Source: Panacibacter microcysteis (GTDB taxonomy: Bacteria; Bacteroidota; Bacteroidia; Chitinophagales; Chitinophagaceae). From it: a DNA stretch of 64,000 bases. Shown here piece by piece: positions 31,899 through 49,887 of the stretch (positions within the stretch are counted from its first letter, which is position 1; the number at the start of each line of letters is the position of its first letter). The notes below the pieces were generated by a model. It saw only the letters and a program-made list of their open reading frames with translations. It ran no database searches and was not told the DNA's origin. A program made the position numbers and the translations under genes. Location of the stretch: positions 434,001-498,000 of the forward strand of contig NZ_JADWYR010000002.1 in NCBI RefSeq assembly GCF_015831355.1, written 5' to 3'.

Positions 31899-34800
31899 AT
31901 GAAAAAATTAAAACCAGCAAGACTGCTTGCCCTTATTGTGCTTGCTTACATGTGCTCCGTTCAGCTTGTTGCTGCACAAACATCAAGAAAAATTACCGGT
32001 AAAATAACGGCCGAATCAGGCGAAGTTTTGGCAGGCGTAACCGTTCAGCTAAAAGGCACCAACAATACCGTTACCTCTGGTGATGACGGAAGTTTCAGGA
32101 TTAGTGTAGCGGGGAATGATGCTGTACTGCTGATCTCTTACGTAGGCTATACCAGGCAGGAAGTTGCCGTAAAAAGCAAATCAACTGTAGATGTGGTGAT
32201 GGCGCCTGATAAAAACGAACTCTCGCAGGTAGTGGTAATCGGCTATGGTACTGTAAAGAAAAGTGATCTTACCGGTTCTGTGGTCTCTGTAAAAGCAGAA
32301 GATCTGAAGGCGATACCAGCCACGAGTTTTGACCAGGCATTGCAGGGTCGTGCAGCAGGGGTGCAGGTTACACAGCTTTCCGGTAAACCGGGTGCAGAAA
32401 CATCTATCCGTATACGTGGCACTACATCTATCAATGCCGGTAATGAACCCCTGTATGTGGTAGATGGTTTGCTCATCTCCAGCGATGGCGGCGACCAGAG
32501 TGGCGGTGCAACACTTGGCCCCAGGATAGGGCCATTGTCTGCCATTAACCCCAATGACATTGAGTCCATTGAAATTTTAAAAGATGCATCAGCTACGGCC
32601 ATCTATGGTTCCAGAGGTGCAAATGGTGTGGTCATCATCACCACCAAACGGGGAAGGGCAGGGAAAGGTTCCGTAACGTTGGATAGTTACTACGGCCTGC
32701 AACAGGTTGCCAATAAAGTGCAGGTGCTGAATGCGCAGCAGTTTGGCGATTTTGTAAACGAAGCAAAACTTAATGCCGGGCAAACACCGGTATATGTAAA
32801 TCCAAAAAATCTTACCACTACAGACTGGCAGGATGAAATAATGGGCAATGCCCCAATGGCCAACTACCAGCTTACATTTTCCGGCGGTGATGAAAAAACA
32901 AAATATGCCATTACAGGCTCCTATTTTACACAGGATGGTATCATTACCAATTCGGATTTTAAAAGATATTCTTTCCGTTCAAATCTCGACCGGGAAGTAA
33001 GTAAGCGACTGACCGTAGGTACCAGCGTAACATATGCCAGGGTAACCTCAAACGGGGTACTTACAAATGCAGGTACCATTGTACCTGGTGTGGTTACAGA
33101 TGCGTTGCTGTTTAATCCTATTCTTCCTGTTTATGACTCCACGGTTGTTGGCGGTTATACGTATGAAAACGACCGCGGAAAATTACTGGGCAATCCTGTT
33201 GCAGAAGTTGACAAATACAATTCTTACACCGTTTCTTCCAGGTTTTTTGGAAACCTGTACGCACGGTATAAGATCATGGAAGGGCTTGAATTTAAAACCA
33301 GCTTTGGCGCAGATGCATTTTCTAACAGGGACAACTCCTATGCACCGTATTATTTAAAGAGGGCACAGGCCAGTAAAGGTGAAGCTTCTTTGGGTAGTGT
33401 ACAAGGTTTAACATGGCTGAACGAAAATACATTCTCCTATAATAAGCAGTTTAAAAACGATCATAGTCTGAATGCAGTTGCAGGCTTTACTGTTCAGCAG
33501 TTTCAGAATGAAAGTATGTTTGTGTACGCATTTGATTTTCCGGATGACAGAACAGGTTACCACGATATTTCGGCAGCGTTAAACCCGCAGAAGCCTTTCA
33601 ACGGCGAATCAAAATGGAGCCTGGTTTCTTTCCTCGGCCGTATCAACTATACCATAAAAGACAAATATCTTTTTACACTTACAGGTCGTTCAGATGGTTC
33701 ATCCAAATTTGCCGATGGCAACAAGTATGGCTACTTTCCTTCCGGTGCTTTTGCATGGCGTGTGTCAAAGGAAAAGTTTATGGAGGATGTGCGTGCAGTT
33801 TCCGATCTTAAATTCAGGGCGAGCTATGGCGTTATCGGCAACCAGGCCATACCACCATACCAGTCGCTGGCATTGGTTGGGCCTTATGGCGAAGGGGTAT
33901 TCAACAGCGCATTGGGCAGCGAAGTATATACAGGCCGGGAACCGCTTAGTTATGTAAACAAAAACCTGAAATGGGAAAGTACCAGGCAACTTGATATTGG
34001 TATCGACCTTAGTTTATTCAATAACCGTATCACATTTACCGGCGATTATTATTCAAAGAAAACTTTTGACCTGTTGTTGTCAACACCAATACCCACCACA
34101 TCAGGTTTTACAACAACGCTGCTCAACGTGGGCAATATTGTAAACAAAGGCTTTGATCTTGACTTGCGCACCGTTAATACCACCGGCATTGTAAAATGGA
34201 ATTCTGCTATCAATGTGTCGATCAATAAAAATGAGATGACCAATCTTAATACCAACACAGATGTTTACCTGCCCGGCGGCATCATTTTAAGAGAAGGCCT
34301 CTCCATCGGTACATTTTATGGTTATGAATTTGATGGCATCTTCCAGTCAGATGCAGAAGCGGCATCAAGCCCGGTGCTTACAGGGCAGGAGCCAACATCG
34401 CCCAACCCTGCCTCTGTTGCAAAAGCCGGCGACAGGAAATACAAAGACATTAATAAAGACGGCGTAATAAATGCCAACGACAGAACCATCCTTGGCAGTG
34501 CACAGCCCAAATTTACCTGGGGTTTCAACAATACATTATCTTTCAAAAATCTCGATTTCAGTTTTTTCTTCCAGGGTTCACAAGGCAATAAAATGGCCAA
34601 TCTCAATAACCTGGACCTCCTGAATTTTACCGGCCAGAACAATGTGTTGGCAGAAGCGGCACTAAACAGGTGGACACCCGAAAACCCGGGCAATAAATAT
34701 CCCCGTGCGCTTTCCAACGGAAGTGTGGACGTAGGCATATTTTCTTCCAATATTGTAGAAGACGCTTCTTATGTAAGGCTGAAAAATGTAACGCTGGGCT

Positions 34801-35009
34801 ACAGGATGCCTTCGCGCATACTTTCCAAAGCAGGTATCCAGAGCTTCAGGATCTATGCAGGCGCTACCAACCTCTGGACACTCACAGACTATAGCGGGTA
34901 CGATCCTGAAGGCAATACTTACGGGCAAAGCACCACATTGATTGGTATCGATTACGGCGGTTATCCGCAGACAAAAACATTTACGCTTGGTGTAAACATC
35001 GGGTTCTAA
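31899..35009 (+). CDS. susC: SusC/RagA-type TonB-dependent outer-membrane transporter
   Basis: The 1036-residue protein has a signal peptide (about 1-27), a CarboxypepD_reg-like N-terminal domain (ITGKITAESGEVLAGVTVQLKGTNNTVTS), the plug with VVVIGYGTVKKSDLTGSVV and YVVDGLLI...IESIEILKDASATAIYGSRGANGVVIITTK, and a 22-stranded barrel ending TFTLGVNIGF. It imports oligosaccharides bound by its SusD partner, energised by TonB. The substrate is not readable from sequence. It is followed 20 bp later by susD; gntR and a putative operator lie upstream. Confidence 0.95.
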   Translation: MKKLKPARLLALIVLAYMCSVQLVAAQTSRKITGKITAESGEVLAGVTVQLKGTNNTVTSGDDGSFRISVAGNDAVLLISYVGYTRQEVAVKSKSTVDVVMAPDKNELSQVVVIGYGTVKKSDLTGSVVSVKAEDLKAIPATSFDQALQGRAAGVQVTQLSGKPGAETSIRIRGTTSINAGNEPLYVVDGLLISSDGGDQSGGATLGPRIGPLSAINPNDIESIEILKDASATAIYGSRGANGVVIITTKRGRAGKGSVTLDSYYGLQQVANKVQVLNAQQFGDFVNEAKLNAGQTPVYVNPKNLTTTDWQDEIMGNAPMANYQLTFSGGDEKTKYAITGSYFTQDGIITNSDFKRYSFRSNLDREVSKRLTVGTSVTYARVTSNGVLTNAGTIVPGVVTDALLFNPILPVYDSTVVGGYTYENDRGKLLGNPVAEVDKYNSYTVSSRFFGNLYARYKIMEGLEFKTSFGADAFSNRDNSYAPYYLKRAQASKGEASLGSVQGLTWLNENTFSYNKQFKNDHSLNAVAGFTVQQFQNESMFVYAFDFPDDRTGYHDISAALNPQKPFNGESKWSLVSFLGRINYTIKDKYLFTLTGRSDGSSKFADGNKYGYFPSGAFAWRVSKEKFMEDVRAVSDLKFRASYGVIGNQAIPPYQSLALVGPYGEGVFNSALGSEVYTGREPLSYVNKNLKWESTRQLDIGIDLSLFNNRITFTGDYYSKKTFDLLLSTPIPTTSGFTTTLLNVGNIVNKGFDLDLRTVNTTGIVKWNSAINVSINKNEMTNLNTNTDVYLPGGIILREGLSIGTFYGYEFDGIFQSDAEAASSPVLTGQEPTSPNPASVAKAGDRKYKDINKDGVINANDRTILGSAQPKFTWGFNNTLSFKNLDFSFFFQGSQGNKMANLNNLDLLNFTGQNNVLAEAALNRWTPENPGNKYPRALSNGSVDVGIFSSNIVEDASYVRLKNVTLGYRMPSRILSKAGIQSFRIYAGATNLWTLTDYSGYDPEGNTYGQSTTLIGIDYGGYPQTKTFTLGVNIGF

Positions 35010-35029: not shown

Positions 35030-36514
35030 ATGAAACGCATATCTCCATACAGGAAAATACTTGTGGCATTGGTTGCATTGTCAACGATTGCTACCTCATG
35101 TAAAAAGTTCTTAACAGAAGATCCAAAGAATGTTGTGGCTGTTACCAACTTTTACAAAACAGAGCAGGATGCTGTTTTTGCGGTGAACGCTATTTACGCG
35201 TGGCTCAATTCCATCAGCTCCGGTTCTTATGCCGGTGTTTATCTCAATTCGTTCTGGGTTACGGCAGGGCTTGCATCAGACGAACTGAACAACCAGGAAA
35301 TTTTTTCACCGTACTACGATCAAACGGCCACGTTTACCTATAACCCGCAAAACACAGCATTGCAGGAAATCTGGTACACGCACTATAAAACCATCACACT
35401 GGCAAATATTGCCATAGAACGCATTCCGGCAATACAAATGGATGCAACCCTCAGGGCAAGACTGGTGAATGAAGCCAAATTTTTGCGTGGGCTCTTATAC
35501 TTTGATATGGTGCGCATGTTTGGAGAAATTCCCCTGGTGTTAAAAGAAACAGAACCGCTTACACCCACTGTTGCAGGGGTAGATGATATTTATGCACAGA
35601 TCATTACAGATCTCACAGACGCGGAAGCGTTACCTGCCGTTTATCCGCCGGGCGCAGGCCGGGGCCGTGCTACAAGCGGCGCTGCAAAAGCCATACTGGC
35701 CAAGGTTTACCTTACAAGGAACAACTGGCAGGGCTGTGTAGATAAATGTAAAGAAGTGATCAATTCCGGCGAGTATGCCTTGTGGGATGATTTTGCAGAT
35801 GTGTTCAAACTTTCCAGCCGCGGTGGCAAAGAAGCGGTTTTCTCCGTTGGTTTTGGAGATGCGGGCGGCGCCATCATCTTTTGGGAAGTGGGTCAGTTCA
35901 ACGTGCGTTTACTGGCTCCTGCATTAAGTGCAGAAGGTGTTGAAAATGCCCAGGGCTGGCAGGTTCCCACGCCTGATTTGTATGAAAGCTACGAATCAAA
36001 TGACAGGAGAAGAAGCGTAACGTTTGTTACCGAAGTACACAACCCCGATGGCAGCATTACAAGCATTAATCCTTACATACAAAAGTATTGGGATCGTGAA
36101 GCAGAACCCAATGCAAACGGGTCTGCCAATGATTATCCTGTTATCCGTTATGCAGATGTGTTACTGATGATGGCTGAAGCCAGCAATGAATTGGGCAATA
36201 TGACAGATGCATACAATTACATCAACATGGTGCGTAAACGTGCAAGGTTCGATGGCACAGTGTACCGCGATGTACTGCCCGATTATACCAATCTTTCCAA
36301 AGATGCATTTAAGGCCGCAGTACTTGAGGAAAGACGCCGGGAGTTTGTGGCAGAAGGTCAGCGCTGGTTCGATCTTGCCCGCACCGGAACATTGGAAACA
36401 CTGGTACCTGTGGCAAAGCCGGGCGTAACGCCGCAGCAGAAGCATTATCTTTTTCCTATACCGCAACGCGAAGTTGATCTGAATCCCAACCTTATTCAAA
36501 ACGACGGATACTAA
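35030..36514 (+). CDS. susD: SusD/RagB-type glycan-binding lipoprotein
   Basis: The 494-residue lipoprotein (lipobox IATSC) has the SusD TPR-rich fold: FLTEDPKNVVAVTNFYKTEQDAVFAVNAIYAWL at the N-terminus, YWDREAEPNANGSANDYPVIRYADVLLMMAEASNELG, and the C-terminal EERRREFVAEGQRWFDLARTG and HYLFPIPQREVDLNPNLIQNDGY. It caps SusC on the cell surface and binds the glycan. Module R13 begins 3 bp after its stop. Confidence 0.95.
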   Translation: MKRISPYRKILVALVALSTIATSCKKFLTEDPKNVVAVTNFYKTEQDAVFAVNAIYAWLNSISSGSYAGVYLNSFWVTAGLASDELNNQEIFSPYYDQTATFTYNPQNTALQEIWYTHYKTITLANIAIERIPAIQMDATLRARLVNEAKFLRGLLYFDMVRMFGEIPLVLKETEPLTPTVAGVDDIYAQIITDLTDAEALPAVYPPGAGRGRATSGAAKAILAKVYLTRNNWQGCVDKCKEVINSGEYALWDDFADVFKLSSRGGKEAVFSVGFGDAGGAIIFWEVGQFNVRLLAPALSAEGVENAQGWQVPTPDLYESYESNDRRRSVTFVTEVHNPDGSITSINPYIQKYWDREAEPNANGSANDYPVIRYADVLLMMAEASNELGNMTDAYNYINMVRKRARFDGTVYRDVLPDYTNLSKDAFKAAVLEERRREFVAEGQRWFDLARTGTLETLVPVAKPGVTPQQKHYLFPIPQREVDLNPNLIQNDGY

Positions 36515-36817: not shown

Positions 36818-36851
36818 CCGGTAAAAACGCGTGCCGCGGCACATACAAAAC

Positions 36852-37793
36852 ATGAACAAACCTGCACTGGCAATAGATCTTGGCGGAACCAATATAAAAA
36901 TTGGTTTGGTACAGTCGCATGTAATAGTAGCACAGGTATCATTGGATGCACACTCAGGCAGCGGCCTGCAGGGAAGATTGCCTTTTATAGAAAAAGCCGT
37001 ATTCAACCTGCTGGTAGAACACAATATTTTGCTGAGTGATCTTGCAGGAATGGGCATGTCGGTACCAGGTATTGTTGACAGTACACAGAAGCGCATTCTT
37101 TCCATCGACAGAAAATTTGGCGACGCGCCGGGTATTGATTTTTCAGCCTGGTGCGATAAAGCATTTGGTTTAAAACTCGCCATGGAGAACGATGCCCGCA
37201 GCGCATTGATAGGTGAGTGGAAATTTGGCAAAGCACAGGCTTATGACAATGCTGTACTCATGACACTCGGTACAGGCGTAGGCAGTGCCGCCATTATACA
37301 AGGGCAACTGTTGCGCGGCAAACACTTTACTGCGGGTATCTTGGGCGGTCACACTATTATAAACTATAACGGTAAAGACTGCAACTGCGGCAATAAAGGC
37401 TGCGTGGAAACAGAAGCATCTACCTGGTGCATTGCAGGCAAGGTAAAAGCAATGGAAGGTTATACTACCAGCAAACTTGCGGAGGAAGAAAAGATAGATT
37501 TTGAATCCATTTTCCGTTGTGCTGCAATGGGCGATGCGGTAGCTGTAAAAGCAAGAACCGAAAGCCTTGATGTGTGGTCTGCCTGTGCCATTAACCTTAT
37601 TCACGCTTACGATCCTGAAATATTATTGCTTTCAGGAGGTATTATGGCCAGCAGCGAAACAATTGTACCATATATTGAAAAGCAGGTGCACCAACATGCA
37701 TGGACGCCCTGGGGTAAAGTAAAGGCAGAAGCTGCATCTTTTCCCGCATCGGCAGCATTATTGGGTGCTGGTTATTTAGTATCAAACGCGTAA
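36852..37793 (+). CDS. ROK-family sugar kinase (glucokinase type)
   Basis: The 313-residue kinase phosphorylates a free hexose or N-acetylhexosamine with ATP. It has the phosphate motif LAIDLGGTNIKIGLV, the catalytic Asp region MENDARSALIGEW, TLGTGVGSAAI, the ROK zinc motif CNCGNKGCVET with an upstream His in GGHTII, and adenosine motif ILLLSGGIM. I chose ATG 36852 (MNKPALAIDLGG) over a GTG 21 bp upstream. It leads a tight three-gene operon with the isomerase (12 bp) and the sugar porter (5 bp), so its substrate is probably a hexose imported by that porter. Confidence 0.86.
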   Translation: MNKPALAIDLGGTNIKIGLVQSHVIVAQVSLDAHSGSGLQGRLPFIEKAVFNLLVEHNILLSDLAGMGMSVPGIVDSTQKRILSIDRKFGDAPGIDFSAWCDKAFGLKLAMENDARSALIGEWKFGKAQAYDNAVLMTLGTGVGSAAIIQGQLLRGKHFTAGILGGHTIINYNGKDCNCGNKGCVETEASTWCIAGKVKAMEGYTTSKLAEEEKIDFESIFRCAAMGDAVAVKARTESLDVWSACAINLIHAYDPEILLLSGGIMASSETIVPYIEKQVHQHAWTPWGKVKAEAASFPASAALLGAGYLVSNA

Positions 37794-37804: not shown

Positions 37805-39577
37805 ATGAAATCAAACTTCGATAAATTTCCGGAAGTAGCTGTTACAGGACATGCCTGCTACTCGGGCTGGGATAATGTGGTTGAAGAAATACAGAAAGCC
37901 ATACAGCAGCCGGGCAAAACAACAGTAGTGGTGGCAATAGAATGCTACCATGGCGTGCTGGCAAAAGAAATCATTAAACATATTAACCAGGAATTGCAGC
38001 CTGCATTACTGCTGCAGTCAAACGCAGCATTTAAAGATGAGCAGGCCATTGCAGCTATGGTGCAGCCGTTTGTAACAGACGATCCTGTGTTTGGATATAT
38101 TACATCACTGGAACTGGCAGATTATTTTGATGAAACGCGCCTGCAGGAAATGCGCACGGCAGTAGCAGGCAGTAGCGGGGTTACTGTAATAACAGGTGCA
38201 GGCGCCACGATTGTTGCAGGGCAGCCCGATGTACTCATCTATGCAGACATGCCACGCTGGGAGATTCAACTGAGATTCAGGAGAGATGCGGTTGGTAACC
38301 TGGGCAAAACAAATAAAACAGACACATTTGCTTATAAATACAAACACGCTTATTTCGTAGACTGGCGTGTGTGCGATAAACACAAGAAGCATATTTTCAG
38401 TACCATCGATTATATACTTGATACAACGATTGAGGAAAACCCCAAGCTTATTACCGCAGCAGCGTTACAAGATGCTATGCAACAGGTGGTAACCAGGCCA
38501 TTCAGGGTGGTACCATTTTTTGATCCCGGACCATGGGGCGGGCAATGGCTGAAGGAAGTGTGCGACCTTGACAGAAGTGCGCAAAACTTTGCATGGGGTT
38601 TCGATTGTGTACCCGAAGAAAACAGCCTGATGCTGCGCTTTCAGCATGAAGTGGTGGAAGTACCTTCAGTAAACGTTGTTTTCTTTCAGCCACAGGCATT
38701 ACTGGGTAAACAGGTCTATAACGCTTTCGGGGATGAGTTTCCCATACGCTTCGATTTTCTCGATACCATGGAAGGTGGAAACCTTAGCCTGCAGGTACAC
38801 CCGCTTAAAGAATACATACGCGAAAAATTTGGCATGCCTTATACGCAGGATGAAAGCTATTATTTTCTCGACGCAAAAGACGAGGCTTTTGTTTACCTCG
38901 GCCTTAAAGAATCGGTAGAGCCTGCAGCCATGGTAGCAGAACTGGAATCTGCGCAAAAAGGCGAAGCGCCTTTCGATGCAGAGAAGTATGTACAAAAATG
39001 GCAGGTACGCAAGCATGATCATGTGTCTATACCTGCCGGCACAGTGCATTGTTCTGGTGCCAATACCGTGGTGCTTGAGATAAGTGCCACACCATACATC
39101 TTCACCTTTAAACTGTGGGACTGGGGCCGTATGGGCCTCGATGGCAAGCCGCGTCCCATCTCGCTGGAACATGGTAAAAATGTTATCCAGTGGGATCGTA
39201 CCACCAACTGGACAAAAGACAACATCCGCAGCCTTGTCCAACCGGTAGCAGAAGGCGATGGCTGGCGCGAAGAGCGTACGGGCCTGGATGAACATTCATT
39301 CATCGAAACGAGAAGACATTGGTTTACCAAAACGGTGGCGCATAACACCAATGGTGTGGTAAACGTGCTAAACCTCATCGAAGGCCGCGAGGCAATCGTT
39401 GAAAGCCCGTCTAATGCTTTCGAGCCGTTTGTTATACACTATGCAGAAACTTTTATTGTACCCGCAGCAGTTGGTGAATATACGGTGCGCCCACATGGCG
39501 AAAGCGAAGGTCACCAATGTGCTACCATGAAAGCCTATGTACGGACAGAAAAACTAGTTGACATCAGCATAAACTAA
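37805..39577 (+). CDS. Class I mannose-6-phosphate-isomerase-like protein with a large N-terminal extension
   Basis: The 590-residue protein has a C-terminal half (about 235-590) resembling zinc cupin phosphomannose isomerases: PWGGQWL, LSLQVHPLKEYI, SIPAGTVHCSGANTVVLEIS and TPYIFTFKLWDWGR. The product would be fructose 6-phosphate from mannose 6-phosphate. The first about 225 residues are extra. KTTVVVAIECYHGVLAKEII and VLIYADMPRWEIQLRFRR resemble a nucleoside/uridine-kinase-like P-loop fold, but no intact GxxGxGKS is present, so catalytic activity there is doubtful. It is coupled to the upstream kinase and downstream porter. Confidence 0.75.
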   Translation: MKSNFDKFPEVAVTGHACYSGWDNVVEEIQKAIQQPGKTTVVVAIECYHGVLAKEIIKHINQELQPALLLQSNAAFKDEQAIAAMVQPFVTDDPVFGYITSLELADYFDETRLQEMRTAVAGSSGVTVITGAGATIVAGQPDVLIYADMPRWEIQLRFRRDAVGNLGKTNKTDTFAYKYKHAYFVDWRVCDKHKKHIFSTIDYILDTTIEENPKLITAAALQDAMQQVVTRPFRVVPFFDPGPWGGQWLKEVCDLDRSAQNFAWGFDCVPEENSLMLRFQHEVVEVPSVNVVFFQPQALLGKQVYNAFGDEFPIRFDFLDTMEGGNLSLQVHPLKEYIREKFGMPYTQDESYYFLDAKDEAFVYLGLKESVEPAAMVAELESAQKGEAPFDAEKYVQKWQVRKHDHVSIPAGTVHCSGANTVVLEISATPYIFTFKLWDWGRMGLDGKPRPISLEHGKNVIQWDRTTNWTKDNIRSLVQPVAEGDGWREERTGLDEHSFIETRRHWFTKTVAHNTNGVVNVLNLIEGREAIVESPSNAFEPFVIHYAETFIVPAAVGEYTVRPHGESEGHQCATMKAYVRTEKLVDISIN

Positions 39578-39581
39578 TTAC

Positions 39582-40970
39582 ATGCAACAACAAAACTCCT
39601 GGTACATCTATAAAGCAACACTGGTGGCGGCTGTTGGTGGCCTGCTATTCGGTTACGATACGGCCGTTATTGCCGGTGCAATCGGTTTTATGAAAACCTT
39701 TTACAATCTGTCAGACGCCATGACCGGCTGGGTGGCATCATGCGCATTGCTGGGCTGTGTGGCCGGCGCCATGTATGCAGGCAAACTAAGCGATAATGTG
39801 GGCAGGAAAAAAGTGCTCATGCTGGCTGCCTTGCTTTTTGCTGTTTCATCGCTCGGTACAGCCATGGCTCCCAACCTCAATTTCTTCGTGGTATTCAGGA
39901 TTGTTGGCGGCATGGGTATCGGTATCGCATCTGTTTTATCACCCATGTATATTTCAGAGATGGCACCTGCAGAAATAAGGGGTAAACTCATTTCTATTTT
40001 CCAGCTGGGTGTGGTCTGCGGCATATTGCTCATCTATTTCGTAAATGCAGGGATTGCCGGTCTGTACGATGAATCCTGGAACGTAAGCACTGGCTGGCGG
40101 TGGATGTTTGGTTCCGGCTTACTTCCTTCCATTGTATTTGTGTTGTTGTTGTTTGGTGTGCCCGAAAGTCCGCGCTGGCTTGCAAAGCAAAGACGCACTT
40201 CAGAAGCGCTGGATATACTTACAAAGATCAACGGTACTGCAAAAGCACAACAGGAACTGAATGATATTAATGCTGCCCTTGCAGAAGAAACAGTATTGCC
40301 GTTGTCAGAAATGTTCAGGCCGGGTTTGCGCACTGCCATGATCATCGGTATCGTGCTGGCTGTTTTTTCGCAGGTTACCGGTATCAACGCCATCATGTAC
40401 TATGCACCGGAAATTTTTAAATCTACCGGCGATGGTTCAGATTCCGCACTTATGCAAACCGTATTGGTGGGTATCATCAATGTGGTGTTTACGCTTGTGG
40501 CCATCAGGTATGTAGACAAACTGGGCCGTAAAAAATTATTGCTCATCGGTATTGCCGGTATGGTTGTCTGTCTGCTGCTGGTAGGTGGTGCATTTTATTT
40601 AAACATGCAAAAAGGTTACCTCGTACTTATTGCCATACTTGCATATATAGCCTGCTTTGCTATTTCCCTGGGGCCGCTTACGTTCGTGGTTATTGCAGAA
40701 ATATTTCCAACCAAAGCAAGAGGCACCGCTATGTCGGTGGCAACGTTTATACTCTGGATCACCGTATTCATTGTATCACAAACATTCCCCATACTCATGG
40801 GTTCTATTGGTAATGCGTTTACATTCTGGATATACATGTTAATGGCAGTATGCGCCTTTTTCTTCGTTTGGAAAATGGTGCCTGAAACAAAAGAAAAAAC
40901 GCTGGAAGAAATTGAAGCATACTTCAAAGCCGGCGATGCGCCTGTGGCATTAAAACCGCGCAAAGTATAA
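39582..40970 (+). CDS. MFS sugar porter (sugar:H+ symporter family)
   Basis: The 462-residue inner-membrane protein has twelve predicted TM segments and sugar-porter signatures: GGLLFGYDTAVIAGA in TM1, the loop GKLSDNVGRKKVL, PESPRWLAKQ after TM6, VTGINAIMYYAPEIF in TM7, DKLGRKKLLL and the C-terminal PETKEKTLEEIE. It carries a monosaccharide, possibly glucose, galactose, mannose or xylose, with protons. It is the last gene of the kinase-isomerase-porter operon; module R15 follows 4 bp after its stop. Confidence 0.92.
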   Translation: MQQQNSWYIYKATLVAAVGGLLFGYDTAVIAGAIGFMKTFYNLSDAMTGWVASCALLGCVAGAMYAGKLSDNVGRKKVLMLAALLFAVSSLGTAMAPNLNFFVVFRIVGGMGIGIASVLSPMYISEMAPAEIRGKLISIFQLGVVCGILLIYFVNAGIAGLYDESWNVSTGWRWMFGSGLLPSIVFVLLLFGVPESPRWLAKQRRTSEALDILTKINGTAKAQQELNDINAALAEETVLPLSEMFRPGLRTAMIIGIVLAVFSQVTGINAIMYYAPEIFKSTGDGSDSALMQTVLVGIINVVFTLVAIRYVDKLGRKKLLLIGIAGMVVCLLLVGGAFYLNMQKGYLVLIAILAYIACFAISLGPLTFVVIAEIFPTKARGTAMSVATFILWITVFIVSQTFPILMGSIGNAFTFWIYMLMAVCAFFFVWKMVPETKEKTLEEIEAYFKAGDAPVALKPRKV

Positions 40971-42016: not shown

Positions 42017-43213
42017 ATGAAAAACAAGCTTGGAATATTCGCAGCGGTTCTGGTGGCATTATCCTCGTGCAAAACAGCACAGAAAGTGCCCGTAAATACA
42101 GACATCAACAATTTAAAGTTTACGGTAGAAGAAGCACCGGAATGGACGAAGCTGCTCAACCGGCAGCACGGCTGGTTTGGTGCTGACGGCATATTTGTAT
42201 TACCCGCCAATGGCGTGGATAAAGCCGACAGTAATGTTGAAAATACCATTCTCTTTAGCGATACCATGATCGGTGATATTATCAACGACAGGCCGAAAGA
42301 AGGATTCATTATGGTGCATAACTCTATCGCCTTGCTGAAGGGTTATGAGCCGAAAGAAGAAAACGTACAGTTTAAGTGGAAAGCTACAAAACCCAGGAAG
42401 GAAGGTTCATACTTTATTCCGCAAACGCCCAATGCGTTGCCAAACGACTACTACTGGCTGGGAGATGGTTTTGTAAACCACGATATGGGTGATAAAACAT
42501 ATATTTTCAGCTACCGTATAAGAGATACTGCAGACAATGCTTTTCTTTTTCAGCAGGTAGGCAATGCAATGATCATTTTGCCAAAAGGAAGCAAAGATCC
42601 ATATACAGATCAAAAGCAGGTAGATGCACCGATATATGCTGTAGACAATACTGCTAAGTACCCCAATAATTACATCTCTTTTGGTTCTGCCGTATTCCCG
42701 AATACAAAGAGTGCCGGCGCGCCAGACCCAGATGGTTATGTGTATGTATACGGTGTGGGTGGCGATGTAAAAAAAGTAATGGTTGCAAGGGTAAAATCAA
42801 CAGCGTTTGAAGATTTTTCCCAATGGCGTTACTGGGATGGTGCAAACTGGCAAACAGACATTCTTAAAGCTGCTACCATTGCAGACCGGGCATCGAACGA
42901 ACTAAGTGTTACGCCTTTACCTGATGGCCGCTATGCAATGGTCTTCCAGACCGATGGCATAGGAAGCGCAGTAGGCATGCGTTTGAGCACAACACCATAT
43001 GGCCCTTTTGGCCCTATCATAAAAATATGGGAGTGTACCGAGCAAAAAGAGTCAAAGAATTTTATTGTGTACAATGCAAAGGCGCATCCCAGTTTATCGA
43101 AGCCGGGCGAAATGCTGATCAGTTATAACGTAGGGTCATTTGATTTCTGGAACGATGTTAAGAATCATTCAAACTTTTACAGGCCAAGATTTATACGCGT
43201 AAAACTGCAATAG
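42017..43213 (+). CDS. Tandem lipoprotein 1, DUF4185/DUF5005-like beta-propeller
   Basis: A 398-residue lipoprotein (signal MKNKLGIFAAVLVALSSC). It shares with the next two proteins a set of blocks: WTKLLNRQHGWFGADGIFVLP, LFSDTMIGDI, MVHNSIALLKG, YYWLGDGFVNHD, DGYVYVYGVGG, FSQWRYWDGANWQTD, SNELSVTPLPDGRYAMVF, YNAKAHPSLSKPGEMLISYNVGSFDFW and YRPRFIRVK. The pattern resembles five-bladed propellers of the DUF4185/DUF5005 type, which are often annotated near glycoside hydrolases. A glycan-cleaving or glycan-binding role is possible but unproven. The start at 42017 avoids translated repeat sequence. Confidence 0.75.
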   Translation: MKNKLGIFAAVLVALSSCKTAQKVPVNTDINNLKFTVEEAPEWTKLLNRQHGWFGADGIFVLPANGVDKADSNVENTILFSDTMIGDIINDRPKEGFIMVHNSIALLKGYEPKEENVQFKWKATKPRKEGSYFIPQTPNALPNDYYWLGDGFVNHDMGDKTYIFSYRIRDTADNAFLFQQVGNAMIILPKGSKDPYTDQKQVDAPIYAVDNTAKYPNNYISFGSAVFPNTKSAGAPDPDGYVYVYGVGGDVKKVMVARVKSTAFEDFSQWRYWDGANWQTDILKAATIADRASNELSVTPLPDGRYAMVFQTDGIGSAVGMRLSTTPYGPFGPIIKIWECTEQKESKNFIVYNAKAHPSLSKPGEMLISYNVGSFDFWNDVKNHSNFYRPRFIRVKLQ

Positions 43214-43228
43214 CAGGTAAAAACAGTT

Positions 43229-44461
43229 ATGATCAACTTACAGGGTACAAAGAACAATTATACGAATGCATTACTTGCTGCAGCAATCTTTTGTTGCGGA
43301 AGCTGCAATAACGCAACAGAGCAACATACAGTCAGCGAAAACCTGGACACCTTAAACTACACTGTAGAAGCGGCACCTGAATGGGATGCAATGTTCAACC
43401 GCAAACACGGCTGGTTTGGTGGCGATGGTATTTTCTCTATTCCTTTAAACGGTGTTGATACTTTCAGCAGTACAGATACCGCCACTGTCGCATTCCTCTT
43501 CAGCGATTCAATGATCGGTGATATTGAAAATGATTCGCTGCAACCCGGCTACAGCATGATCCATAATTCTGTTGCATTGCTGAAAGGCAGGCAGCCTGCA
43601 GATAGCAATATTTCCTTCGAATATGTAAAAGAGCCGGGCAACAAGCCGGGCACACTTTTTACACCCGCTATGCCACCGGCCGAAAAAGGCGACATATACT
43701 GGCTGGGAGATGGGTTTGTAAATACAGCGCTCGACAGTAGTTTGTTCATCTTTGGTTATATCATTCACAATACCACAGACAATGACTGGGGTTTTGCCGA
43801 AACCGGTAACATGCTGATAGAAATTCCAAAGAACAGCAAACCACCCTATACAAACTATACACAAACGCCAACACCGTTTTTTATAAAAGGTGCATCAGAT
43901 ACTGCCAGCGACCAGGGTTCTTTTGGTGCAGGCATTTTTGTAAATACCAAAGAAGCAGGTATAAGCAACGGAGATGGTTATGTGTATGTATATGGTGTGC
44001 GCGGCAAGCAGAAGAATGTAATGGCTGCCCGTGTAAAACCAGCACAGTTTAAGCAGTTTGATGAATGGACCTTCTTCGATGGTACAAACTGGGTAAAAGA
44101 CATTACAAAAGCCGCAGCTATTACAGACAGTGCGTCGAATGAACTAAGCGTAACACCACTGCCGGATGGCAGGTACATCATGGTTTTTACAGTAAACGGG
44201 CTGGGTTATGATGTGGGCATAAGAGTAGGCAAATCCCCGGTAGGCCCATTTGGCAAAGTGATGAAGATCTGGAACAGCGATACGCTCAAGAGCATGTCTA
44301 AACAGATCTTTTCTTACAATGCAAAAGCGCATCCCGCTCTCTCAAAACCGGGCGAACTGCTCATCAGCTACAATGTAAATTCGTTCGATTTTCACAAAGA
44401 GATCAAACAGTTTCCTGATCTCTATCGCCCTCGTTTTATACGTTTAAAAATTGAGCCATAA
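43229..44461 (+). CDS. Tandem lipoprotein 2, DUF4185/DUF5005-like beta-propeller
   Basis: A 410-residue paralogue of its neighbours, starting 15 bp after copy 1. The N-terminus (AAIFCCGSC) looks like a lipoprotein signal; the first MINLQGTKN residues are polar and a later start is possible. Conserved blocks include FNRKHGWFGGDGIFSIPLNGVD, LFSDSMIGDI, IYWLGDGFVN, GDGYVYVYGVRG, FDEWTFFDGTNW, SNELSVTPLPDGRYIMVF and YNAKAHPALSKPGELLISYNVNSFDF. The repeated Asp and Trp positions in WFGxDGI and WLGDGF are candidate substrate-contact residues. Confidence 0.75.
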   Translation: MINLQGTKNNYTNALLAAAIFCCGSCNNATEQHTVSENLDTLNYTVEAAPEWDAMFNRKHGWFGGDGIFSIPLNGVDTFSSTDTATVAFLFSDSMIGDIENDSLQPGYSMIHNSVALLKGRQPADSNISFEYVKEPGNKPGTLFTPAMPPAEKGDIYWLGDGFVNTALDSSLFIFGYIIHNTTDNDWGFAETGNMLIEIPKNSKPPYTNYTQTPTPFFIKGASDTASDQGSFGAGIFVNTKEAGISNGDGYVYVYGVRGKQKNVMAARVKPAQFKQFDEWTFFDGTNWVKDITKAAAITDSASNELSVTPLPDGRYIMVFTVNGLGYDVGIRVGKSPVGPFGKVMKIWNSDTLKSMSKQIFSYNAKAHPALSKPGELLISYNVNSFDFHKEIKQFPDLYRPRFIRLKIEP

Positions 44462-45664
44462 ATGAAATACAAGGGTTACATAACAGCGTTGTTATGCATG
44501 TTTGCGGCAATTGCCTGTAAAACAAAAGATGCTGCAGAGGCTGATAAAAAAGACGAATACAGCAAGTCGAGAATTACCACGCAGGCGGTACCCGGGTGGG
44601 CAGAAATGTTACGGCACGATAGCGGCTGGATAGGGGCAGACGGCATTTATTGTACGGCGCTCAACGGTGTTGAGAAACCCGGTGCAATGAATGATGCATC
44701 AGAAACGATGTTCTGGTTCAGCGATTGTATCATCGGCGATATCGATACCGAAGCAGACACGCTTAAAGGCAGCTGGCAGATGATGAATAATTCAGTGGCG
44801 TATTTTACCGGCGCATCACCCGATCCTGGTAAAATAAAATATTTCTGGCGCAAAGACAGTGCGGGCAACCCTTTGTCCATGTTTGAGCCAAACACACCCA
44901 ATGCGCCGGAGAAAAGTTATTACTGGCTGGGCGATGGCTTTATGAATCACGCCAGAGACAGTACCATTTACATCTTCGCTTACCTTATCAGGAACATTCC
45001 CGGCGGCATTTATCCGTTTGAAGACATTGGTGTATCAATGATTGCATTACCCAAAAACAGCCGCCCGCCTTATGCCGGTCAGCAACAGAAAGAAACACCA
45101 TTGTTTTTTACTGATGCAAAAGGTAAAACGGTGTTTGGTATTTGCGTGCTGCCCAATACAACAGGCGCAGGCGCACCAAAGCCCGATGGATATGTGTATG
45201 TGTATGGCGTTCGCGGCATGAACAAAGAACTGGTTGTTGCAAGGGTGCAGGATACCGCTTTCGATAACTTCAGCGAATGGCGCTTTTGGGATGGCCTTTC
45301 ATGGAATACAGATATGCATGCCTGCGCAGCACTTACAGACAACATCTCCAATGAAATGAGTGTCACGTTTATGCCCGATGGCCGTGTTATAGCCGCTTAC
45401 CAGCTAAAGACCGCCAATACAACTGTTGCCATCGCTGCAGGTGCCACACCATGGGGTCCGTTTCAGCCTGCAAAAAAGGTGTGGGAAACACCGGAAGCAT
45501 ACGACGATCTTGATTTTTACACATACAACGCCAAGGCTCATCCTAATTTATCAAAGCCGGGGGAACTGTTGATCAGTTATAACGTTAACTCCTTTGACTT
45601 TTTAGATGATATTGTAAAGCATCCGCATCATTTGCGGCCAAGATTTATTTCAGTGAAGTATTAG
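44462..45664 (+). CDS. Tandem lipoprotein 3, DUF4185/DUF5005-like beta-propeller
   Basis: A 400-residue paralogue that starts directly after copy 2's stop codon (0-bp gap). The signal ends FAAIAC. Blocks: MLRHDSGWIGADGIYCTALNGV, FWFSDCIIGDI, YYWLGDGFMNHARDST, DGYVYVYGVRG, FSEWRFWDGLSW, SNEMSVTFMPDGRVIAAYQ, YNAKAHPNLSKPGELLISYNVNSFDF and LRPRFISVKY. It diverges most: HGWFG is SGWIG. Module R17 begins one base after its stop. Confidence 0.75.
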   Translation: MKYKGYITALLCMFAAIACKTKDAAEADKKDEYSKSRITTQAVPGWAEMLRHDSGWIGADGIYCTALNGVEKPGAMNDASETMFWFSDCIIGDIDTEADTLKGSWQMMNNSVAYFTGASPDPGKIKYFWRKDSAGNPLSMFEPNTPNAPEKSYYWLGDGFMNHARDSTIYIFAYLIRNIPGGIYPFEDIGVSMIALPKNSRPPYAGQQQKETPLFFTDAKGKTVFGICVLPNTTGAGAPKPDGYVYVYGVRGMNKELVVARVQDTAFDNFSEWRFWDGLSWNTDMHACAALTDNISNEMSVTFMPDGRVIAAYQLKTANTTVAIAAGATPWGPFQPAKKVWETPEAYDDLDFYTYNAKAHPNLSKPGELLISYNVNSFDFLDDIVKHPHHLRPRFISVKY

Positions 45665-45807: not shown

Positions 45808-46854
45808 ATGAATAAGCAGCTTCCCATACAACTACAAAATACAGTCTGCTCACTAACGGTTGATCTGTATGGTGGTGCCATTACTGATTTTCACCTGCAC
45901 CATAACTTGGTCAACCCTTTGTCATTCCGGTTCAGGGAAGATGAGATGCCCGCCAACAATAAAGGTGGAGCCTGTTACCAGGGCCATTTTATCTGCGGGG
46001 GGCGCTGGGGTGCGCCTTCGGCAGGGGAGATGCTGGCAGGTTTACCCAACCATGGCGAACCGGCGAATATTGTATGGAGCCTCCGCGAACAAACCAGCCA
46101 ATCGCTTGCGATGCAGGTGCATGCAGCAAAAGAAGGGCTGCAAATACACAGAACCATCAAACTGGCGCATGCATCAGCCATGATCCATGTATCCGAAACA
46201 ATTCAAAACATTAATCCACTGGGCAGGTTGTACCAATATGTGCAACATGCAACCATTGCGGCACCTTTTCTTACAGCAGGTACACAGGTAAACTGCAATG
46301 CCACCAAAGGTTTTGATTACATGCATATCAATGATGCAGCCAGGCCGGTATTGCAATGGCCAGAAGTTTATGATGCCGGTGGAAACATTTTTAGTTTGCA
46401 GGAATCAGGTCATATGTACAACAGTGTGTTCTCTTTTACGGTAAGCAACAACGCTTTGTATGGCTGGCTTACCGCGTATGACCCGCATCATCGACTTCTA
46501 TTGGGTTATGTATGGCCGGCAAAAGATTACCCGTGGATCAATCTATGGCAACATTATGAGGGAAATGAGCCGAAGTACCGTGGCCTTGAATTTGGCAATA
46601 CTGGTCTGCATCAGCCATTTAAAGAAATAATAGCCGGCAATAAATTGGAATTGTTTGGCAAAAAAACGGTGGAATACCTCGATGCCGGAGAAAGCGTAAC
46701 AAAATCATACAGTGCTTTTCTACTGCCGGTAGAAAAACATTTCAGTGGTGTGGCGGAGTTGCTTGTTGAAAACAATGGCTTATATTTAAAAGAAGCAGGT
46801 ACACCAGTTAAAACATTTATCGGTACCATCAATTTTGAAAGCGTTGAAAAATAA
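45808..46854 (+). CDS. Aldose-1-epimerase-like (galactose mutarotase superfamily) protein
   Basis: A 348-residue cytoplasmic protein, no signal peptide, with the beta-sandwich pattern of aldose epimerases: VCSLTVDLYGGAITDFHLH, GHFICGGRWGAPSAGEMLAGLPNHGEP, YVQHATIAAPFLTAGTQVNC, GYVWPAKDYPWINLWQHYEGNEPKYRGLEFGN. The candidate catalytic His is in the PNHGE or YVQHAT segment and the Glu in GLEFGN. A mutarotase would prepare the anomer used by the downstream dehydrogenase. It overlaps the SDR gene by about 11-20 bp. Confidence 0.72.
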   Translation: MNKQLPIQLQNTVCSLTVDLYGGAITDFHLHHNLVNPLSFRFREDEMPANNKGGACYQGHFICGGRWGAPSAGEMLAGLPNHGEPANIVWSLREQTSQSLAMQVHAAKEGLQIHRTIKLAHASAMIHVSETIQNINPLGRLYQYVQHATIAAPFLTAGTQVNCNATKGFDYMHINDAARPVLQWPEVYDAGGNIFSLQESGHMYNSVFSFTVSNNALYGWLTAYDPHHRLLLGYVWPAKDYPWINLWQHYEGNEPKYRGLEFGNTGLHQPFKEIIAGNKLELFGKKTVEYLDAGESVTKSYSAFLLPVEKHFSGVAELLVENNGLYLKEAGTPVKTFIGTINFESVEK

Positions 46855-47596
46855 AACAGCCATCATAACGGGTGCATCGAAGGGAATAGGCCTTGCATGT
46901 GCGCAACTGTTTTTTGCAGAAGGCGCCAATGTTGTATTGCTCGATCTTGTACCGCCATCTGTTGATGTGCATGATAAGCGATGGCTGTTCTTTGCATGCG
47001 ACGTATCGAAAAGCGAAGCGGTAAAAGCAGCGGTTGAAAAAGCGCACAACACTTTTGGCAGCATTGATTACCTCGTAAACAATGCGGGCATTCAGCGGTA
47101 TGGCACTGCCACAACAACCACCGAAGAAGCGTGGGATGAAGTAATGAATGTTAATCTTAAAAGCCAGTTTCTCTGCGCCAGGCATTGCATACCGTTTATG
47201 CAACAAAGCGGTAATGGCGTAATCATCAACATCAGCAGCGTGCAGGCTTTTGTCAGCCAGCACAATGTGCTGGCGTATACCACGGCCAAAACGGCGTTGC
47301 TGGGCTTAACAAGAAGTATAGCGGTCGATTATGCACCGCAGGTAAGGTGTGTTGCTGTGTGCCCCGGCACTATTGATACGCCCATGCTGAGAGAGGCCAT
47401 AAACCTTTCGCCAGACCCGGCTGCAGTAATGCAGGAGTGTGTTGATATGCATCCCGCGGCACGTATTGGTACCCCGCAGGAAGTGGCAGCACTGGTAATT
47501 TTTTTGTGCAGCGATAAAGCTGGATTTATTACGGGGCAGGCCATTAGGATAGATGGTGGCCTGGGAATAACGATCGCTGGCAGTAAGCGTGATTAG
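46844..47596 (+). CDS. Short-chain dehydrogenase/reductase (SDR)
   Basis: The protein has about 250 residues, with the NAD(P)-binding motif TAIITGASKGIGLACAQLF, the adenine-ring Asp region FFACDVSK, NNAGIQRYG and the catalytic Ser/Tyr/Lys in NISSVQAF...LAYTTAKTALLGL, followed by PGTIDTPML. It has no ATG; TTG at 46844 (LKNKTAII) or 46835 is the likely start, both within the end of the preceding gene, so translation is coupled. Context (mutarotase, sugar-acid dehydratase, lactonase) suggests it oxidises an aldose to its lactone. Confidence 0.85.
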   Translation: MKNKTAIITGASKGIGLACAQLFFAEGANVVLLDLVPPSVDVHDKRWLFFACDVSKSEAVKAAVEKAHNTFGSIDYLVNNAGIQRYGTATTTTEEAWDEVMNVNLKSQFLCARHCIPFMQQSGNGVIINISSVQAFVSQHNVLAYTTAKTALLGLTRSIAVDYAPQVRCVAVCPGTIDTPMLREAINLSPDPAAVMQECVDMHPAARIGTPQEVAALVIFLCSDKAGFITGQAIRIDGGLGITIAGSKRD

Positions 47597-47710: not shown

Positions 47711-48931
47711 ATGAAGATCACAAACATCAGGGCCACCACCGTTGCCATGCCATTGGAGGCACCCATACGGCATTCAAACGGTTGCCACTGGGGCCGTTTT
47801 GTACGCACCATTGTGCAGGTAGAAACAGATGAAGGTATTACAGGTCTCGGTGAAATGGGCGGTGGCGGCGAATCAGCAGAGCATGCAATAACTGCATTGA
47901 ATCAATACCTGGTTGGCCACGACCCCATGCAGCTTGAACAACTGTACTGGAAAGTATGTAACCCCACTGCATCATTGTACAACAACCGTACGCAGCTACA
48001 TGCAGCTATTGAGTTTGCATGTATAGATATCATTGGTAAAAAGCTTGGCATACGTGCCTGCGATTTATTAGGTGGCGCTTTGCGGGAAGAAGTGCCTTTT
48101 GCATCGTATATCTTCTTTCGTTATAAAAATGAAGATACAGGTATTGGCGGCGAGGAAACTCCCGGGGCAATTGTGGCACATGCCAAAGAACTGGTAGCCA
48201 AATATGGTTTTACATCGCACAAACTGAAGGCGGGAGTTTTTCATCCAGATCATGAGATTGCAGTGTTCAAAGCTTTATCGGCAGCTTTTCCGCAACACAG
48301 GGTACGTATAGATCCCAATGCAGCATGGAGTGTGGAAGAAGCAATCAGGATAGGCAAAGCCATAGAAGATTTGCCCAACGATTACTACGAAGATCCTACG
48401 TGGGGCATGGAAGGTATGCGGCGTGTGCGGGATATGGTGCGTATACCAACATCAACAAATACTGTTGTGGTGAATTTTGAACAGCTGGCTGCATGTATAC
48501 GTACCAGCGCAATTGATGTAATACTGCTCGACACAACCTTCTGGGGCGGTCTCCGCCAGGCCTGGAAAGCAAGTGTGGTGTGTGAAAAATTCCAGGTGGG
48601 TGTGGCCGTGCACAGTTCCGGCGAGTTGGGCATACAACTGGCCACCATGCTGCATCTTGGGGCTGCTATACCCAATCTTTCTTTTGCTGCAGATGCGCAT
48701 TATCATCACATAACAGACGACATCATTAAGGGTGGTAAAATGCAATATGTAAACGGTGCAATAAAAGTACCGCAGGGCCATGGCCTGGGTGTTGAGCTGG
48801 ACGAAGACAAACTGAAGCAATACAACGAATACTACAAGGCTGTTGGGGGTTACCGTTACGACCGCGATCCGCAAAGACCAGAATGGTTTAGCGTGTTACC
48901 GGAACGCAATTGGGCGAAGCCTTTGCAATAA
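47711..48931 (+). CDS. Enolase-superfamily sugar-acid dehydratase (glucarate dehydratase-like)
   Basis: A 406-residue protein of the mandelate racemase/glucarate dehydratase group. The capping domain starts [30 protein letters not shown]. The barrel has the KxK base in [11 protein letters not shown], metal ligands in RIDPNAAW and YYEDPTWG, an Asn in [11 protein letters not shown], and the catalytic His in [22 protein letters not shown], as in glucarate dehydratase. It dehydrates an aldonate or aldarate to a 2-keto-3-deoxy acid. The neighbouring SDR and lactonase argue for an aldonate as substrate. Confidence 0.85.
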
Positions 48932-48991
48932 TTTTTTTTGAGCCAGGCTACAATGCAGGCATTGAGCTGTTGTTGCGTCGCACACTTGTAC
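48932..48991 (-). repeat. 60-bp intergenic module R19 (type B)
   Basis: Core GTACAAGTGTGCGACGCAAC reads leftward from 48991; the A-rich end (eight T on the plus strand) begins at the base directly after the dehydratase stop codon. Confidence 0.93.
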
Positions 48992-49038
48992 TGCATCACC
49001 AGTGGCAGCACGATGCTAAAGAAACTAAAATTGTTTAT

Positions 49039-49887
49039 ATGAAGATCGCGATAAAGGGTGTACAGGTTTTTGCAGATGGTCTCGATCATCCTGAATGTGT
49101 GGCCGTGCACCCTGATGGCTCCGTGTGGGCGGGTGGTGAAGCGGGGCAGATCTATAAAATATCGAAAGATGGTACCAGTATAACAACAGTTGCCAACACC
49201 GGTGGCTTTGTCCTGGGCATAGCCTTTGCGCCCGACTGTAGCTGGCTTGCTGTATGTGATTTAAAACACAAGTGTGTATGGAAGCTCGATCTTTCAACGA
49301 TGCAGCTTGAAAAGTTTGCACAAGGTGCTGCGGGCATCAGCTTCAACATTCCAAACTATCCTGTCTTCGATAAATCCGGCAACCTGTATGTGTCAGAAAG
49401 CGGCGCATTCAGGGAAGTATCGGGAAAGATTTTTCGTTTCAGTGCAAATGGCTATGGCAATGTCTGGCACCACGGGCCATTCAATTTTGCCAATGGCATG
49501 GCACTTTCGCCGGGTGAAACATGTTTGTATGTAGTATGTACCTGGCTGCCGGGTATAGAAAGGATCGCTGTAAATCCCGATGGTACGGCCGGCGAAAGAA
49601 CAGTGGTGGTAACCATTCCTGGAACATGCCCTGATGGCATAGCATTCGATAAAGCAGGCAACTTGTACATATCCTGCTACGCGCCTAATACAATATACCG
49701 TTATACAACCGATGGGATATTGGAAACGTTTGTACACGACTGGGAGGCGCACACACTTTCCAATCCTACCAACATCGCATTCGATGGAAACGTGCTGTAC
49801 AGTGCAAACCTGGGTCGCTGGCACATTAGTAAAATGATGGCGGATATAGATGGTTTACCACTTGCCGCGAATAATATTGATCAATAA
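49039..49887 (+). CDS. SMP-30/gluconolactonase-family lactonase
   Basis: The 282-residue beta-propeller has LDHPECVAVHPDGSVWAGGEAGQIYKI, a metal-binding Glu candidate in HPECV, NFANGMALSPGETCLYVV, TCPDGIAFDKAGNLYISCYAPNTIYRY and LSNPTNIAFDGNVLYSANLG, the Asn/Asp positions that bind the metal in SMP-30 enzymes. It would hydrolyse a sugar lactone to the aldonate used by the upstream dehydratase. I start at MKIAIKGVQVF (49039); longer frames run back through module R19 and are not supported. Confidence 0.85.
   Translation: MKIAIKGVQVFADGLDHPECVAVHPDGSVWAGGEAGQIYKISKDGTSITTVANTGGFVLGIAFAPDCSWLAVCDLKHKCVWKLDLSTMQLEKFAQGAAGISFNIPNYPVFDKSGNLYVSESGAFREVSGKIFRFSANGYGNVWHHGPFNFANGMALSPGETCLYVVCTWLPGIERIAVNPDGTAGERTVVVTIPGTCPDGIAFDKAGNLYISCYAPNTIYRYTTDGILETFVHDWEAHTLSNPTNIAFDGNVLYSANLGRWHISKMMADIDGLPLAANNIDQ

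Follow-up and report, generated by a model that had tools for sequence, protein, structure and literature searches.

GH183-like propeller lipoproteins in a Sus-type locus of Panacibacter microcysteis: probable surface glycosidases with mannose-type neighbours

Enzymes of the GH183 type attack the cell wall of bacteria of the tuberculosis type. Their family, DUF4185, has been listed in CAZy as GH183, a family of retaining endo-D-arabinanases, since 2023, and the portions of the two reports drawn on here and below tie it to one substrate, D-arabinan (PMC10115798; PMC10509167). In EndoMA1, D33 is the nucleophile, D51 is the acid/base and E243 is also required; the exchanges D33N, D51N and E243A or E243Q almost abolish activity (PMC10509167). 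A retaining mechanism with two aspartates has been described for AraH2/Rv3707c and DgGH4185a/b (PMC10115798). The aspartate pair is 18 residues apart in EndoMA1 (33/51) and DgGH4185b (170/188), a trait of these characterized members that is not given as a rule for the family. GH172 is present in both published D-arabinan loci (PMC10115798; PMC10509167), accompanied by GH116 in the EndoMA1 organism (PMC10509167) and by fucose isomerase and a putative GH116 in D. gadei (PMC10115798). Here, we describe three tandem genes, P1, P2 and P3, on a stretch of 64,000 nucleotides of Panacibacter microcysteis (assembly GCF_015831355.1, contig NZ_JADWYR010000002.1, positions 434,001 to 498,000, forward strand), which is called the window and supplies all coordinates unless stated otherwise. 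With a probability of roughly 0.6, P1–P3 belong to a GH183-like (DUF4185) subfamily of five-bladed propellers that are active surface glycosidases on a mannose-containing glycan.

All three products pass the gathering score of DUF4185 (PF13810; 39.5 bits) with 51.5 bits for P1, 52.3 for P2 and 47.0 for P3, in matches that span only about 100 of the 309 model positions, and narrowly miss the cut-off of DUF5005 (PF16396; 29.6 bits) with 27.7, 26.3 and 23.6 bits, respectively. A sequence profile matches the structure 4hbs, termed a hypothetical protein in PMC10509167, over P1 positions 36–398 (E value 2e-28). The structure model of P1, built from 54 sequences, has a predicted local distance difference test score (pLDDT) of 92.6 and a predicted template modelling score (pTM) of 0.90. 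Its comparison with solved structures gave Z = 34.3 for 4hbs (324 aligned residues, 2.6 Å, 25% identity), Z = 28.1 for GH183 EndoMA1 (8ic1; 300 aligned residues, 3.2 Å, 16% identity), Z = 19.4 for AraH2 (8an0) and Z of about 18–20 for GH159, GH43, levansucrases and others; with GH43 and other five-bladed glycoside hydrolase families (fold Z about 19), sequence matches were weak and short. The initial annotation had proposed propellers of unknown activity in a locus without a recognized glycoside hydrolase. The predicted five-bladed GH183-type fold of P1 agrees with propellers, and both the unknown activity and the want of a recognized glycoside hydrolase are outdated by the assignment of DUF4185 to GH183 (PMC10115798; PMC10509167).

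In the profile alignment, E243 of EndoMA1 corresponds to E295 of P1, and as a check of the numbering, residue 198 of the EndoMA1 chain is an arginine, in agreement with PMC10509167. A direct alignment of the N-terminal aspartate pair with EndoMA1 was not obtained with deeper profiles and looser limits, the alignments beginning at residue 181 or 97. The pair was therefore placed via a bridge consisting of 4hbs and seven full-length Bacteroidota DUF4185 proteins (alignment A5). The bridging DUF4185 proteins carry the motifs GQDG and FGDT, whose aspartates are 18 residues apart in the protein from locus L128, and their profile puts E243 of EndoMA1 on a conserved glutamate (E267 in L128). A profile–profile comparison of the propeller family with the seven DUF4185 proteins reached a probability of 99.8 over 307 columns, and P1 D57, D82 and E295 align on L128 D31, D49 and E267. 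Conservation was assessed in 105 members, comprising 102 from 80 loci and P1–P3. Both aspartates are present in 105/105 and the glutamate in 103/105, the two proteins without it being outlying, DUF5005-like members. The full triad is thus found in 103 of 103 core members, including P1, P2 and P3, and this conservation argues for the prediction, from sequence, that P1–P3 are active glycosidases.

The three genes are complete and lie on the plus strand. P1 (42017–43213) encodes 398 residues counted from ATG, although its open frame extends upstream to a GTG at 41930, and the codons of its predicted catalytic residues start at 42185 (D57), 42260 (D82) and 42899 (E295). P2 (43229–44461; 410 residues) follows after 15 base pairs (bp), with D66, D93 and E305 in the corresponding places, and P3 (44462–45664; 400 residues; D60, D88, E298) follows without a gap. 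Pairwise identities are 50% for P1–P2, 44% for P1–P3 and 42% for P2–P3, far beyond chance (BLASTP E values 9e-142, 1e-116 and 4e-104), in agreement with the three tandem paralogues and the gaps described in the initial annotation. Of the blocks said to be shared, GYVYVYGV is letter-identical in all three proteins; the remaining ones are exact in one or two: WFGADGI in P1 (WFGGDGI in P2, WIGADGI in P3), YYWLGDGFVNH in P1, SNELSVTPLPDGRY in P1 and P2, and YNAKAHPxLSKPGELLISYN in P2 and P3. The proposal that divergence of the WFG block reflects different substrates is not supported, as the tryptophan and the aspartate of this block are invariant in 105/105 members; a division of labour among the paralogues is possible on other grounds, since P3 represents an old separate clade. 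Each protein starts with a hydrophobic stretch followed by a cysteine (LSSC in P1, CGSC in P2, AIAC in P3). A crude lipobox pattern occurs within the first 50 residues of 41/105 family members, and the lipoprotein anchor can therefore not be generalized to the whole propeller family. A second genome of the genus (G058) contains three tandem matches, whose coordinates leave gaps of 39 and 159 bp.

The subfamily differs from characterized GH183 enzymes in several respects. The spacing between the two aspartates is 25 residues in P1, 27 in P2 and 28 in P3, and 21–28 in the 103 core members, a spacing of 18 being seen only in the two outlying ones; P1–P3 thus have 7–10 extra residues between the catalytic aspartates. 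At the column of the EndoMA1 subsite residue Arg198, where the loop alignment is ambiguous, other residues are found, and a lysine two places further on (K252) is kept in 101/105 members. The core set is characterized by the block YWLGDGF, with D150 present in 103/103. In a tree of 74 rows, calculated by a quick method with long branches flagged and the root placed on the full-length DUF4185 set, the propeller family and this set separate. P3 falls within a fully supported clade of 17 rows that spans several bacterial families, and P1 and P2 are placed in other clades; the tandem therefore did not arise by a recent triplication. A search of phages for further GH183 sequences yielded one record, which was not used.

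The assignment to mannose is based on the recurrence of alpha-mannosidases and of the isomerase gene in related loci. A contig scan confirmed 282 relatives, and the best 80 loci of these were used for context counts. The closest named relative is Limnovirga soli (79% to P1). Of 294 sampled genomes of the family, 51 gave a match at E 0.001, a count that takes in distant DUF4185-like proteins. A GH92 or GH38 alpha-mannosidase was matched in 43/80 loci, in 38 of these 43 within 1.5 kilobases (kb) of a propeller gene, and both families were confirmed by Pfam in representative loci. The isomerase was found in 19/80 loci, one or more of three genes of the cassette described below (isomerase, porter, small lipoprotein) in 21/80, and an alpha-mannosidase and/or a cassette gene in 55/80. 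As a background, at least 150 GH92 matches were counted across 149 genomes from the class, from which we estimate that, averaged over genomes, less than 1% of 21-kb stretches hold GH92, and about 4% in the richest genomes, so that chance does not explain its position next to propeller genes; no p-value is given for the association because common descent links the loci.

Relatives of the cassette occur in Limnovirga, Rufibacter, Hymenobacter, Cesiribacter, Cyclobacteriaceae and others, frequently with a SASA esterase gene between propeller genes. Five plasmid records contain relatives, among them an unannotated stretch from Nonomuraea and a Hymenobacter plasmid with the order GntR, SusC, hypothetical protein, SusD, ROK kinase, class I mannose-6-phosphate isomerase, sugar porter, hypothetical protein, DUF4185, sialate O-acetylesterase and DUF4185; a GH97 gene lies directly upstream of this cassette and a GH92 gene about 15 kb downstream. 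Further cassettes have GH92 directly after the propeller gene (L029, L082, L087, L157 and L160) or after the SASA gene (L083 and L163). Propeller genes are also combined with a ROK kinase and a GH92 that has a GDSL domain (L148; similarly L149 and L150), with GH38 (L156), with GH92 and GH38 (L153) or with GH130 (L080), and in L148 a GH94-like gene for 777 residues with a weak Pfam match (29.6 versus 27 bits) stands beside GH92. A second locus of P. microcysteis itself, on contig 3, holds two GH92, one GH38 and three DUF4185-like genes together with SASA, Lnt-like and Lgt-like genes. A paralogue of prolipoprotein diacylglyceryl transferase (Lgt) occurs in 34/80 loci, mostly just before the propeller gene (e.g., L058, 8805–9971), and the Lgt-like gene that lies with the Lnt-like gene in the second locus (L125, 3042–5612) is 41% identical to the L058 paralogue; genes for lipoprotein maturation are odd within sugar loci. 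In eight of the nine loci L128–L136 (L128–L135), the gene after DUF4185 runs off the end of the stretch after 456–490 residues, and the one of these eight that was scanned (L128) gave no Pfam match at 1e-5.

Genes known from D-arabinan utilization were sought by tblastn with genes from the same genome as queries (E 1e-8) in 121 stretches, 14 of which are repeats, leaving 107 distinct ones, nine of these only about 4 kb long. GH172 and fucose isomerase were matched in none of the 121 stretches (none of the 107 distinct ones) and a GH116-type gene in a single one (L167); by their marker genes, the propeller loci are not D-arabinan loci. P. microcysteis carries a fucose isomerase gene, a permease-like gene, GH172, a GH116-type gene, a kinase-like gene and a second GH116-type gene in a row on contig 4 (2.8–15.8 kb; L174, genome G000). 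The permease-like and kinase-like calls were made by eye, and the two PF04685 genes (printed as DUF608) we take to be GH116. No DUF4185 match was found in this cluster, which is likely to be a D-arabinan cluster and could be served in trans by P1–P3.

The locus around P1–P3 lies entirely on the plus strand. It begins with a GntR/UTRA regulator gene (30947–31687; GntR 57.7 bits, UTRA 104.6 bits), which takes the same position in several related loci. Genes for a SusC-type TonB-dependent transporter (31899–35009; TIGR04056, 932.7 bits) and a SusD-type lipoprotein (35030–36514; PF07980, 131 bits) are adjacent, as expected from the earlier description of a Sus-type locus. They are followed by genes for a ROK sugar kinase (36831–37793; PF00480, 156.7 bits) and a protein of 590 residues (37805–39577), the C-terminal part of which resembles class I mannose-6-phosphate isomerase (PMI_typeI, 19.2 bits). 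The latter matches the mannose-6-phosphate isomerases 1qwr and 1zx5, and its relative on the Hymenobacter plasmid is annotated accordingly; its N-terminal 240 residues or so match no Pfam family above cut-off. Next come a sugar porter of the major facilitator superfamily (39582–40970; PF00083, 421 bits; TIGR00879, 414.7 bits) and a small two-domain lipoprotein conserved beside P1 (41136–41930; 18 relatives aligned, model pLDDT 88.5), for which fold matches are weak, the top Foldseek match being the DUF4466 protein 4ei0; it is possibly a glycan binder. Downstream of P3 lie genes for an aldose-epimerase-like, DUF4432-like protein (45808–46854; PF14486, 23.1 bits, under the cut-off of 32.5), a short-chain dehydrogenase/reductase (SDR; 46835–47596; PRK06398 aldose dehydrogenase, 288.9 bits, cut-off 341) whose closest solved relatives, 3vtz and 2dtd, are named glucose 1-dehydrogenase, an enolase-superfamily, glucarate-dehydratase-like sugar-acid dehydratase (47711–48931; PF13378; 4it1, E 1e-81) and an SMP-30/gluconolactonase-like lactonase (48910–49887; PF08450, 75 bits). 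A Pfam scan of the 14 products between 30.9 and 49.9 kb revealed no further glycoside hydrolase, polysaccharide lyase or carbohydrate esterase family; together with the conserved triad, this sustains the view of the initial annotation that P1–P3 are the best candidates for the polysaccharide-acting enzyme. The SASA esterase frequent between propeller genes of relatives is missing here. A sulfatase-family gene (53968–55311) lies near but outside the locus, past two GFO/IDH/MocA oxidoreductase genes.

The fold of P1, the catalytic residues, the make-up of the locus, the recurrence of mannose genes and the lack of matches for two D-arabinan markers are established computationally, and we infer activity, surface location, substrate and the sugar routed. 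P1–P3 would be anchored in the outer membrane and would act at the cell surface as anomer-retaining glycosidases, opening or trimming a glycan that contains mannose, fragments of which the adjacent SusC/SusD pair would import. Mannose would then pass via the sugar porter, the ROK kinase and mannose-6-phosphate isomerase into glycolysis, and a second, oxidative branch of SDR, lactonase and enolase-type dehydratase, matched in only some relatives, may take the same or a further sugar. Many relatives have GH92/GH38 and/or the SASA esterase beside the propeller, while in the window locus both are missing and the propellers are multiplied. An exchange of GH92 for P3 was also considered. In cassette loci of at least 8 kb, GH92 was first counted in 4/18 loci with P3 versus 9/9 without (Fisher p 1.5e-4), or 4/17 versus 8/8 distinct loci, as L165 repeats L017 and L152 repeats L029; in one of the four (L147), GH92 lies about 15 kb away on the other strand. 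The exchange failed a tree-aware test, in which L147 was scored as lacking GH92 (23 loci, three changes for each state, sign test median p 0.5), and is retained as a lead only.

Several observations weigh against active surface enzymes for a mannose glycan. The counterparts of D33 and D51 are assigned by the bridge, with its spacing of 18 in 4hbs and L128–L136, and not by direct alignment. The substrate of characterized GH183 enzymes is D-arabinan, an alpha-mannosidase is missing from the window locus, the isomerase-like protein of this locus stays below the Pfam cut-off of 22 bits, and a ROK kinase with an isomerase would fit other hexoses as well. Neither alpha-mannosidase nor cassette gene was found in 25/80 loci; five of these (L050, L054, L056, L080 and L084) hold other parts of such loci, and 20 show no gene of a cassette or GH92-type locus beside the propeller gene. 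Four of the 20 have SusC-type genes at a greater distance, and five, from Cyclobacterium, end with the contig within 430 bp. The adjacency of GH92 is partly due to common descent, with many loci from Mucilaginibacter, so that 43/80 does not stand for 43 independent events, and genomes with propellers may have more sugar loci than the background sample. In Pedobacter (L064, L071, L072 and L086) and Chitinophaga (L023, L025 and L041), the propeller gene sits amid genes unrelated to cassette or GH92 loci.

The GH183 fold and triad would also suit ordinary endo-D-arabinanases acting on actinobacterial arabinogalactan or lipoarabinomannan, a glycan that contains both arabinose and mannose; mannosidases would then strip mannose caps, and D-arabinose would enter the SDR/lactonase/dehydratase branch or be handled by genes elsewhere, for which the contig 4 cluster without a DUF4185 gene of its own is a candidate. 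We consider this unlikely, since GH172 and fucose isomerase (0/107 distinct stretches each) are missing and GH116 (1/107) is nearly so, unlike in the published D-arabinan loci, the kinase, isomerase and porter of several cassettes (L010–L013 and L016–L018) are not accompanied by matches to the oxidative branch, and both the unmatched Arg198 and the lengthened Asp–Asp loop set the proteins apart. Non-catalytic, glycan-binding surface propellers would fit the lipoprotein-type starts and the position beside SusC/SusD and another lipoprotein, and likeness of fold proves no function; yet binding alone does not demand a triad kept in 103/103 core members, and 13 distinct P3-bearing cassette loci have no GH92 match, other glycoside hydrolase families there not having been searched one by one, which makes such a role improbable.

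GH183, GH43, GH62 and levansucrases act on furanosides. The folds closest to P1 include those of GH183, GH43 arabinofuranosidases and arabinanases, GH62 and levansucrases, which raises the possibility that P1–P3 remove a furanosyl or other capping sugar (e.g., galactofuranosyl or an arabinofuranosyl branch) and expose mannose to GH92 without cutting a mannosidic bond themselves. The tight spacing of GH92/GH38 and propeller genes noted above, as well as the mixture of both in the second locus of P. microcysteis, would fit; the simplest cassettes, however, gave no match to a second sugar pathway when queried with the window's own genes, and the idea follows from fold and context; we regard it as possible but doubtful. 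Within the preferred reading of surface enzymes for a mannose-containing glycan, we suggest very tentatively that the GH183 propeller, a cutter of D-arabinofuranan, has become in Bacteroidota a family of retaining alpha-mannosidases or endo-alpha-mannanases that is recognizable by the longer Asp–Asp loop and YWLGDGF; in some loci this family may have taken over the work of GH92.

It was already known that such proteins are annotated as DUF4185, and the family has been described. What is new, within the open-licence PMC literature searched, is that one branch keeps the catalytic residues and has a gene neighbourhood that points towards mannose: we found no description there of GH183-like genes from GH92 Sus-type loci, and the words mannosidase, GH92 and GH38 are absent from the main text of PMC10115798 and PMC10509167. 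Given the mannose-type neighbours, the name DUF4185/GH183 should not by default be taken to mean D-arabinanase. The propellers would account for a Sus-type locus seemingly without an enzyme and offer a case of a change of substrate within one fold that is open to bench test.

Among known systems, BACOVA_04882 (4hbs), a putative hydrolase from Bacteroides ovatus, is alike over the full length of the fold and in its GW-x-GxDG and F-x-D motifs but has its aspartates 18 residues apart instead of the 25–28 of P1–P3. EndoMA1 from Microbacterium arabinogalactanolyticum (8ic1, 8hhv) has the five-bladed propeller and the triad D33/D51/E243 in common with them; it differs in its low identity of 16%, an extra domain resembling a carbohydrate-binding module, Arg198, which is unmatched in P1–P3, and a D-arabinan locus with GH172 and GH116. 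The fold of AraH2/Rv3707c (8an0, Z = 19.4) and DgGH4185a/b is related; P1–P3 cover only about a third of the Pfam model (100/309 positions), and the D. gadei locus holds fucose isomerase and GH172. With Sus-type GH92 loci, the locus in the window shares SusC, SusD, a regulator and a porter, and in the loci of its relatives GH92 itself stands beside the propeller gene.

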